Shown here one piece after another: positions 54,830-56,634 of a stretch of 64,000 bases of DNA. Every line of letters starts with the position of its first letter. Position 1 is the first letter of the stretch. A model generated the notes under the pieces. It was not told the DNA's origin. It made no database searches and was given only the letters and a program-made list of their open reading frames with translations. A program made the position numbers and the translations under genes. The stretch comes from Pseudoclavibacter sp. AY1F1 (GTDB lineage Bacteria > Actinomycetota > Actinomycetes > Actinomycetales > Microbacteriaceae). The stretch lies in the NCBI RefSeq assembly GCF_002931075.1, contig NZ_PSTQ01000007.1, positions 124,001 to 188,000 of the forward strand. Direction: 5' to 3'.

Positions 54830-54960
54830 GCCCGCCCGGCGCGGCGCGGCGCGGCGCGGCGCGTCCCGGCGCGTCCCGGCGCGGCGCGGCGCGTCCCGGC
54901 CCGGCCCGGCGCGCACGCATCGCGCCCCGCGCCCGCGCGCATCCCGGCCCCGCGCATCCC
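54830..54960. repeat. Low-complexity GGCGC / GTCCCGGC repeat tract
   Basis: Almost pure G and C: runs of GGCGC and GTCCCGGC units fill this stretch after the nei gene, then degenerate GCGCATCCCGGC units. It can form strong structures and slippage is likely. Confidence 0.85.
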
Positions 54961-54966
54961 GGAGAG

Positions 54967-55015
54967 TTGTGGCTCGGTGCTGTCCAAGCGCACGCCAACC
55001 GCACAAGCCCACAAC
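54967..55015. repeat. 49-nt interspersed repeat, copy 1
   Basis: It begins TTGTGGC and ends CCACAAC, exactly 49 nt, with CCAACCGCA in the second half. The ends are inverted copies of TTGTGG. Two other 49-nt copies lie on the far side of the endonuclease gene. Confidence 0.75.
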
Positions 55016-55053
55016 GCTGTGGCCGAGCGCGCAGCGCAGCGCGTCCGGCGCTT

Positions 55054-56154
55054 TCAGCCCCGACCGAGACGTTCCGCCCGCAGCCGCTTCGCATAATCGG
55101 TGAACGTCCGCAAGCCTGCGGCAGGATCGAGGTCAGCGACGGTGAGACGCACATGTCGCACCCCGGAACCCTCAATCTCCCTGCTCCGCGTGATGTCCAG
55201 ACGCCACTGTCGCTGACTTGTGCGATGCCCGTCTCCCTCATAGTCGTACCCGATGCGAGCTTCCCTATCGACGAGATCAATTCGCGCCACCTGACGCCCT
55301 CCCGACACAAGGCAGTAGTTGATATCCGGCTCCGGATAGCCCGAATCCACGAGCGCGAGCCGCGTCGTCGACTCCCAAGGGGACTCGACGCACTCGCGAA
55401 CGCGCCGTGTAGCAGACCGCAGCACGCCCACGCCCGTGCACCCCGACCAGGCCTCGACTGCCGCCTCCAAACGCTCCCGCGTCGTGAGCGCACGAGGCCA
55501 AATGCGCCCTGGGTAGTTGTCCGCATCCGAGAGCAGGGCATCGCCGACTTGCACGAGCTCAAGCTCGTCCAGATCACGAGCCAGAAGGCAGTAGGTGAGT
55601 TCCGGTGAGGCCACCGAAAGTCCCCCAAGGCGGGCGATGCTCCAGAAGCGTGACGGAATCGATCTCGCCGCCACGCCCTTTGCGCGTGGCGGGTTTCGTC
55701 CCTTTGGCACGATGACATGGACCGCCGCGTCGCGAAGGAGCCTCAACGGAAGCGGAAGCCCGTAGAGCCGAGCGGCGGAGACACCGCCGAACGCCTGGTT
55801 TACGGACATGATCGGCCAGTAGCTGCGGTCGAGCTCTTGCATTCGGGCTGCGAGCGCAGCGAACTCGTCGCTGGCCCCGCGCACTCCGACGAGGGCATCG
55901 GCGAACTGCGGATCCGGCATCGGTTGCGGCACCCGCACTCCGCGGAAGGGCCGCGCCTCAGCGCTGTTACGAAGTCGGGCTTTGGAGATGCCCGCAGCAC
56001 GGGCCTCGCCCACGCTGAACGCCGCGAACCTGAGGTCGAAGGGCAACTGGATGCGCGGCTCCCGCCGACTCGTGCGGCCTGCACTCGTACTCATCCGCTC
56101 GTCCGCGCTGTCCGCACTGTCCGCGCTGTCCGCACTGCCGCCGTAACCTGCCAT
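55054..56154 (-). CDS. AbiEi-like / DUF559-like endonuclease-domain protein
   Basis: This protein has 366 residues. After a Ser/Ala/Asp tract, a winged-helix-like segment (FSVGEARAAGISKARLRN, about 48-66) recalls the AbiEi N-terminus. The C-terminal part (about 260-352) has a DUF559/Vsr-like PD-(D/E)XK pattern: SPWESTTRLALVDSG, VARIDLVDREARIGYDYEG and RLDITRSREIEGSGVRHVRL. It is probably a nuclease-fold protein of unknown biology. ATG 56154 has TAGCCT exactly 6 nt upstream. The gene is bracketed by 49-nt repeats (one after it, two before it), and its flanks are G/C-rich and repetitive. Confidence 0.82.
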   Translation of the reverse strand: MAGYGGSADSADSADSADERMSTSAGRTSRREPRIQLPFDLRFAAFSVGEARAAGISKARLRNSAEARPFRGVRVPQPMPDPQFADALVGVRGASDEFAALAARMQELDRSYWPIMSVNQAFGGVSAARLYGLPLPLRLLRDAAVHVIVPKGRNPPRAKGVAARSIPSRFWSIARLGGLSVASPELTYCLLARDLDELELVQVGDALLSDADNYPGRIWPRALTTRERLEAAVEAWSGCTGVGVLRSATRRVRECVESPWESTTRLALVDSGYPEPDINYCLVSGGRQVARIDLVDREARIGYDYEGDGHRTSQRQWRLDITRSREIEGSGVRHVRLTVADLDPAAGLRTFTDYAKRLRAERLGRG

Positions 56155-56160
56155 TGCCCG

Positions 56161-56166
56161 AGGCTA
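56161..56166 (-). promoter_or_regulatory. -10 hexamer TAGCCT, leaderless start of endonuclease-like gene
   Basis: TAGCCT on the minus strand ends 6 nt before ATG 56154. Confidence 0.6.
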
Positions 56167-56269
56167 GAACCGTCTCACCAGCTTCAACGATCGCGGCCTA
56201 AAGCTGTGGAAAACCGGGCCAGAGCAGCGTCGACCTCAGCTGCCTCGGTTGGCCCTTTCCCTCACAAAA

Positions 56270-56318
56270 TTGTGGCGCAACGCGCTTGGGGAGCGGACCA
56301 ACAGCATCCGTCCACAAC
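56270..56318. repeat. 49-nt interspersed repeat, copy 2
   Basis: TTGTGGC start, CCACAAC end, 49 nt, with CCAACAGCA in the same place as the other copies. Confidence 0.75.
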
Positions 56319-56341
56319 CCTGCAGATTGACAGCGCGATCT

Positions 56342-56416
56342 GCCCGAGGCTCACGCACGCCGCGCCGCCCGAGGCTCACGCACGCCGCGCCGCCCGAGGC
56401 TCACGCACGCCGGGCG
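56342..56416. repeat. 25-bp tandem repeat, three copies
   Basis: A unit beginning GCCCGAGGCTCACGCACGCC recurs at 56342, 56367 and 56392; the third copy diverges at its end. There are no spacers, so it is not a CRISPR array. Confidence 0.9.
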
Positions 56417-56420
56417 AGAG

Positions 56421-56469
56421 TTGTGGCGAAGTGCGGTTCGAGCGATCTCCAACCGCACTCACCCACAAC
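56421..56469. repeat. 49-nt interspersed repeat, copy 3
   Basis: TTGTGGC start, CCACAAC end, 49 nt, with CCAACCGCA in the second half. A GAG precedes it as in copy 1. Confidence 0.75.
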
Positions 56470-56634
56470 TTTGTGCGCCGCGAGGAGGGGTGGGCGGGCT
56501 CAGCGCGGGCACCAGGCGCGGGCACCGAGCGCCGGCACCGGGCGCGGCGCCTCCCGCACAGACGACGATCCCGTCGTCGGCGCGAGGCCGGCGACGGGAT
56601 CGGTGGATGCGCTTCGGCGCTGCTTGCGCGCTGT

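Follow-up and report, generated by a model that had tools for sequence, protein, structure and literature searches.

Fixed-length palindromes bracket genes for predicted Vsr/EDxHD-fold nucleases in Pseudoclavibacter and other Actinobacteria: a candidate repeat-plus-enzyme system

Three short repeats with inverted ends surround a gene for a nuclease-like protein in Pseudoclavibacter sp. AY1F1, which raises the question of whether repeat and gene belong together. An earlier note, made from the sequence alone, had compared the arrangement with REP sequences and their RAYT transposases, or with MITEs, and had suggested that the protein might act on or mobilise the repeat. The window, i.e., the whole stretch of DNA that was analysed, comprises 64,000 nt (GCF_002931075.1, NZ_PSTQ01000007.1, positions 124,001–188,000) and contains the following features:

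54960–55021 (core 54967–55014), no strand: palindromic repeat copy 1, 62 bp, flanked by the nei2-like gene (+) and the nuclease-like gene (-; 3' end)
55054–56154, minus strand: nuclease-like gene, 366 aa, MTES_1575/DUF559 type
55057–55392, minus strand: C-terminal nuclease domain (residues ~255–366), predicted Vsr/EDxHD fold
55927–56046, minus strand: N-terminal helix-helix-hairpin region (residues ~37–76), a probable winged-helix DNA-binding part from its secondary structure
56263–56324 (core 56270–56317), no strand: palindromic repeat copy 2, flanked by the nuclease-like gene (5' end) and the aldehyde dehydrogenase gene (-)
56414–56475 (core 56421–56468), no strand: palindromic repeat copy 3

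All three repeats are present at the positions first described, where none is expected by chance according to dinucleotide shuffles of the window. The length of exactly 49 nt given in the earlier note had to be corrected, since the strict core TTGTGG...CCACAA measures 48 nt and the 49th base opens a conserved flank; the fixed length itself stands. Column statistics over 92 distinct copies define a full element of ~62 bp, nCACAGAG-TTGTGGC-nnRR-TGCkGTT-centre-AACmGCA-YYnn-GCCACAA-CTCTGTG, in which each arm carries the conserved block CACAGAG-TTGTGGC, four free positions and the block TGC(T/G)GTT, mirrored in the opposite arm. The ends of the 62-bp dyad are CACAGAGTTGTGGC. A search for TTGTGG-N20..50-CCACAA returned 48 matches genome-wide, 44 of them exactly 48 nt long, against 3 for the reversed control, and a covariance model recovered the pattern matches together with several more diverged copies. 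The family numbers about 50 DNA palindromes of fixed length in this genome, in line with the many copies that the earlier note had named as support, and the conservation of ends and length extends far beyond the three copies of the window. Searches of the repeat against Rfam RNA families gave chance-level matches only. A DNA-uptake-sequence model was rejected because solitary half-sites are not enriched outside the dyads (24 free TTGTGGC versus 42 for the reversed word). In the gaps around the three copies, three tandem units of ~25 bp (GCCCGAGGCTCACGCACGCCGCGCC; 56338–56413) separate copies 2 and 3, and low-complexity CGCGGCGCGGC / CGTCCCGG units (54838–54930) lie between nei2 and copy 1.

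Named records with the strict pattern come almost entirely from Pseudoclavibacter. A lone strict-pattern hairpin in Actinomadura montaniterrae (L061, 6898–6945) falls outside the family and was treated as a chance or isolated hairpin. Among ten genomes of the genus, five contain the repeat (44, 18, 37, 13 and 23 exact copies, the 44 being those of this genome and the other counts those of four further species) and five lack it; the reversed control had no match in the relatives. The copies are old and occupy orthologous intergenic sites: of the 27 flanking-gene sets with copies between them, 23 are shared by two or more species. They carry no target-site duplication, since the direct identity of the flanks does not exceed the highest value of the baseline. 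Each site holds one to six copies as loose tandem arrays, and array copy numbers are probably underestimated, since assembly contigs stop at or near repeat loci (L289, at the end of contig C12 of genome G005; L026, at the end of C11). The neighbouring genes at 68 Pseudoclavibacter loci are convergent in 47 cases, co-directional in 20 and divergent in one. Two copies (L037, 5852 and 5969; C28:151851 and 151968) lie within a well-scoring predicted gene and have counterparts at the same place in three other species. Genome G006 retains 13 repeat copies although its nuclease-like gene is broken, and in G005, which has 37 copies, a close orthologue of the gene was not found, although its nei2 contig stops 52 bp downstream.

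The description of the gene as AbiEi/DUF559-like proved right, because 51 of 58 aligned homologues match the Pfam family MTES_1575 and 36 match DUF559 (AbiEi_1, two); the match of the window protein itself is sub-threshold (MTES_1575, E 0.37). Among viral models, the protein matches DUF559, Vsr-like and PvuRts1I-like proteins. The AlphaFold2 model is confident (pLDDT 89, pTM 0.85), and the sole good match to a solved domain found with Foldseek is the catalytic domain of I-Bth0305I (3r3p; probability 1.00, TM-score 0.71 on target, but E 0.12). A sequence-profile search gave the endonuclease-like protein 3hrl at E 0.0025, with the I-Bth0305I domain as a weak match. The nuclease site is invariant: D205, S258, E261, R265, D293, G307 and D320 do not vary among the 58 homologues, and H310 (99%) and R323 are near-invariant. 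The protein is predicted to be a Vsr/EDxHD-fold nuclease with conserved nuclease residues (E261, D293, H310 and D320), with residues ~37–76 as its probable winged-helix DNA-binding part. The codon usage of the gene is atypical, and a gene caller based on a codon model did not predict the gene. It differs from AbiE toxin-antitoxin systems in that an AbiEii-type nucleotidyltransferase partner is absent beside it, the neighbours being nei2, a pentapeptide protein and the aldehyde dehydrogenase.

The order nei2/nuclease-like gene/aldehyde dehydrogenase is kept in three other species, together with the flanking repeats. The nuclease-like protein evolves fast, as it is only ~66% identical at this locus compared with ~92% for nei2 and 98–99% for the dehydrogenase. 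Repeat-free Pseudoclavibacter species have no copy of the nuclease-like gene next to nei2, and in more distant species the aldehyde dehydrogenase, the nuclease-like gene and the repeat are all missing beside nei2.

From this genome alone the association of gene and repeat is weak. The gene adjoins only one of ~22 repeat loci, as most REP loci likewise do not lie at an enzyme gene; tblastn detected no further nuclease-like gene at the other repeat loci of the genome, and a protein-based scan of named genomes gave no match. The association becomes strong only once searched from the protein side. When 20 loci from other genera, fetched for their palindromes, were searched with the window protein, strong matches were obtained at L202 and L212, where the homologous gene sits between two palindromes of a local family, along with one chance-level match at L203. 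A protein search of 400 Microbacteriaceae genomes located homologues in 266 of them, which represent 61 of 85 genera. We selected 74 homologue loci by protein similarity alone and scored a gene as bracketed if each of its two flanks has, within 600 bp, a palindrome of one and the same family. Such pairs flank 21 of the 74 homologues, from 13 genera. Among 337 control genes the number is 4 (odds ratio 33, p = 1.2e-13), and all four of these lie in loci that had been fetched for their repeats (L204, L208 and L209). If palindromy is not required, homologous repeats occur on both flanks at 41 of the 74 loci, versus 1.5% for flanks paired across loci. The two-sided pair is missing in 45–70% of homologues at the thresholds used. 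Bracketed homologues were also found on an Arthrobacter plasmid (Micrococcaceae) and on a Tsukamurella plasmid (Mycobacteriales; gene annotated as DUF559); two further Tsukamurella homologues and a Nonomuraea homologue have no two-sided palindrome. These data confirm the enrichment beside the gene family that the earlier note had named as support, and strengthen its REP/RAYT-like link, in that same-family palindromes lie specifically on both sides of homologues. The unit is compact: the median distance from gene to palindrome edge is 36 bp on the 5' side and 7 bp on the 3' side, and the palindrome centres lie ~1.1 kb apart.

Each paralogue or lineage has its own palindrome. This genome encodes five paralogues, four of which are bracketed, each by its own family (beginning GTTGTGGC.., GAGTGAGCGAGAAGCATGC.., CTCGGGATGGGTTGCTCAT.. 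and GCTGCCCGGCGTTTCGCC..), and the fifth has two palindrome copies on one side only. The palindrome of the L019 paralogue is GGGATGGGTTGCTCAT, and a second batch of loci adds the bracketed cases L308, L309, L316 and L317. Protein and palindrome co-diverge: protein identity correlates with palindrome similarity beyond all 2000 permutations (Mantel rho 0.21, null sd 0.055), and orthologues at least ~60% identical retain recognisably related palindromes (e.g., L019 and L308). This co-divergence could reflect shared descent instead of recognition. Two paralogue groups of Pseudoclavibacter (L298, L299, L300 and L311), ~45% identical to the window protein, have different palindromes (GAGTGAGCCAGATGC.. 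and CAGACCTGGGGCTTGCGCATCC..), and one paralogue copy in genome G008 contains stop codons.

With the covariance model and a general pattern, at least two more Microbacteriaceae genera were seen to have palindromes that share this layout and differ in their outer letters. The half-motif occurs ~100 times in genome G360, and perfect 68-bp palindromes are found in all gene orientations in G261; both genomes also hold copies in gaps between divergent genes. In G261, the palindrome that flanks the nuclease-like gene recurs elsewhere; one copy beside that gene shares 66 identical bp with a copy at a different locus whose flanks are unrelated, and this is evidence that the palindrome alone has been copied. 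The L020 family likewise has additional copies on contig C28.

These sequence comparisons probably reflect a REP/RAYT-like repeat-plus-enzyme system, in which a Vsr/EDxHD-type nuclease would be the cognate enzyme and would act on, and spread, its own palindrome. The sequence data show the association of gene and palindrome; binding, cleavage and mobilisation of the palindrome by the protein are what we infer from the arrangement. Weighing against this reading are the age and orthologous siting of the Pseudoclavibacter copies, which lack target-site duplications, the homologues that have no two-sided pair, and the copies in G006 and G005. More tentatively, and with rather less confidence, the system may represent a widespread, undescribed selfish element of actinobacteria, whose nuclease would recognise its own ~60-bp palindrome as a hairpin and copy it genome-wide.

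The structure of the repeat bears on the form in which it might be recognised. At single-copy sites, 63% of cells at sequence-free positions are complementary between the two arms, compared with 40.5% (sd 2.4) when arms are exchanged between copies. Across 76 diverse copies the percentage paired and the covariation both exceed all shuffles, and at the same site in different species the arms differ between species yet match internally. Single copies form strong hairpins, with a mean MFE of -38.7 kcal/mol. The combination of specific blocks with free but paired spacers suggests recognition or maintenance via a folded single strand. In array copies arm complementarity is slight (42%, versus 37%, sd 1.8, with arms exchanged), so that a hairpin may not be required everywhere.

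Hairpins between convergent genes are also what would be expected if the palindromes were transcription or RNA-end elements, such as bidirectional terminators or mRNA 3'-end hairpins, which bracket the nuclease-like gene as an isolated transcription unit that needs insulation. The siting in Pseudoclavibacter, the hairpin strength and the co-variation of arms at orthologous sites all fit this explanation, but the repeat lacks a U-tract, and terminators would need neither fixed length nor conserved blocks nor one sequence family per enzyme. Moreover, matching palindromes do not bracket other genes, and the copies in G261 and G360 extend to divergent gaps. The excess of G-U over A-C mismatches at co-directional loci (107 versus 32), looked for as a sign of selection on the RNA, is accounted for by strand composition, according to arm-shuffling. 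We consider this explanation unlikely as a replacement for the repeat-plus-enzyme reading; an RNA-end role is compatible with it, and the two are not exclusive.

Alternatively, the palindromes could be operator-like sites bound by the winged-helix part, which would thereby control its own gene and, from the dispersed sites, work as a regulator or nucleoid protein; the nuclease domain would then have another purpose, for example defence. AbiEi-type proteins are autoregulators that bind inverted repeats, and dyad symmetry with paralogue-specific sites would suit a dimeric DNA-binding protein. Against this, palindromes lie downstream of the gene as frequently as upstream, divergent promoter regions are avoided in Pseudoclavibacter, duplex binding needs no complementarity of sequence-free spacers, and the most conserved residues are those of the nuclease. 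An operator role is, on balance, rather improbable. A classical REP or MITE family moved by a RAYT or other transposase, with the nuclease gene as a passenger, is very improbable, for while copy number, arrays and intergenic 3' location are REP-like (PMC3733652), the family has neither target-site duplication nor GTAG/CGTC tag, no Y1 transposase domain is detected in the genome at E <= 1, and the gene bracketed in 13 genera is nuclease-like and not a transposase.

In the favoured repeat-plus-enzyme system, of which the window would contain one instance, the single-copy gene would encode a site-specific DNA enzyme with three parts, namely a probable winged-helix at the N terminus, a middle domain and, at the C terminus, a Vsr/EDxHD-type nuclease. 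The gene is bracketed by its own 62-bp palindrome, of which non-autonomous copies are scattered through the genome. A protein dimer that reads two fixed blocks per arm would explain the fixed repeat length. The protein may act on the palindrome as a single strand folded into a hairpin or cruciform; action restricted to this form would leave the dozens of ordinary duplex copies intact and would account for arms that remain complementary at positions with no fixed sequence. Spread of the palindrome, and occasionally of gene and palindromes together, would result from a nick or cut that is then repaired or copied. Old copies would remain between convergent genes, where they may be harmless or serve as transcript-end hairpins.

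The candidate system resembles REP/RAYT in its dispersed intergenic palindromes, its arrays and its preference for 3' ends and convergent genes (PMC2817692, PMC3733652), as REPs also prefer convergent-gene gaps (PMC3733652), and in its lineage-specific repeat families and the position of the enzyme gene between two cognate palindromes. RAYT genes are "always flanked by two REPs" (PMC2817692), and it was through such flanking that RAYTs were linked to REPs, just as the nuclease-like gene is linked to its palindromes here. The enzyme differs, being an HUH Y1 transposase there and a protein of predicted Vsr/EDxHD fold here, as do the repeats, which are 20–40 bp with GTAG/CGTC tags there and 60–70 bp dyads, in Actinobacteria, here. 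Because the Y1 enzyme and the GTAG/CGTC tag are missing, the family is not a member of REP/RAYT. A search with PF01797 (IS200/IS605-type and RAYT-type Y1 transposases) that was positive in 10 of 14 control genomes found no match at E <= 1 in this genome, and a RAYT or IS200 transposase was accordingly discarded as the enzyme. The comparison with MITEs and palindromic IS remnants, also drawn in the earlier note, extends to short, non-autonomous sequences with symmetric ends, and fails in that target-site duplications are absent and no parent IS was found. The closest structural relative, the EDxHD homing endonuclease I-Bth0305I, dimerises on a target of nearly 60 bp according to a review (PMC3943268). 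It shares with the protein the fold of the catalytic domain and the E/D/H/D residue set, and its target matches the palindromes in size. I-Bth0305I is, however, an intron-encoded phage enzyme with a non-repeated target, while the gene here is free-standing and bracketed by dispersed palindromes.

To our knowledge, DUF559/AbiEi-like genes are abundant in actinobacteria and have no known role. Actinobacterial DUF559, MTES_1575 and 'AbiEi-domain' proteins belong to the Pfam families of the homologues, and in the openly licensed literature on DUF559, MTES_1575, Pseudoclavibacter and palindromes we found no description of their function and nothing on a nuclease-palindrome link; an earlier description is possible. 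Some REP-like palindromes, the CGTC REPs, have been described without a dedicated enzyme (PMC3733652). The present finding joins REP-like palindromes with the role-less DUF559/AbiEi-like genes. If correct, REP/RAYT would have a convergent counterpart that is built on a different enzyme, and a large protein family would gain a function, and if the protein acts on the palindrome, bacterial palindromic repeats would have a second, chemically unrelated route of spread. The predicted substrate adjoins each nuclease gene, and the function is therefore directly testable; the numerous pairs of a nuclease and its paralogue-specific target would lend themselves to studies of long-site DNA recognition.

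At L208 (G360 C15:40400–48500), eight palindromes of the form GAGTGGTCsGAAGATGCTC.. lie within 8 kb and occupy most intergenic gaps, including divergent ones. At L219 (G338 C15), a second family (GAACGTCGCTCATTC..GAATGCGCGACATTTCGC) is interleaved with the GAGTTGCGGC family within one gap.
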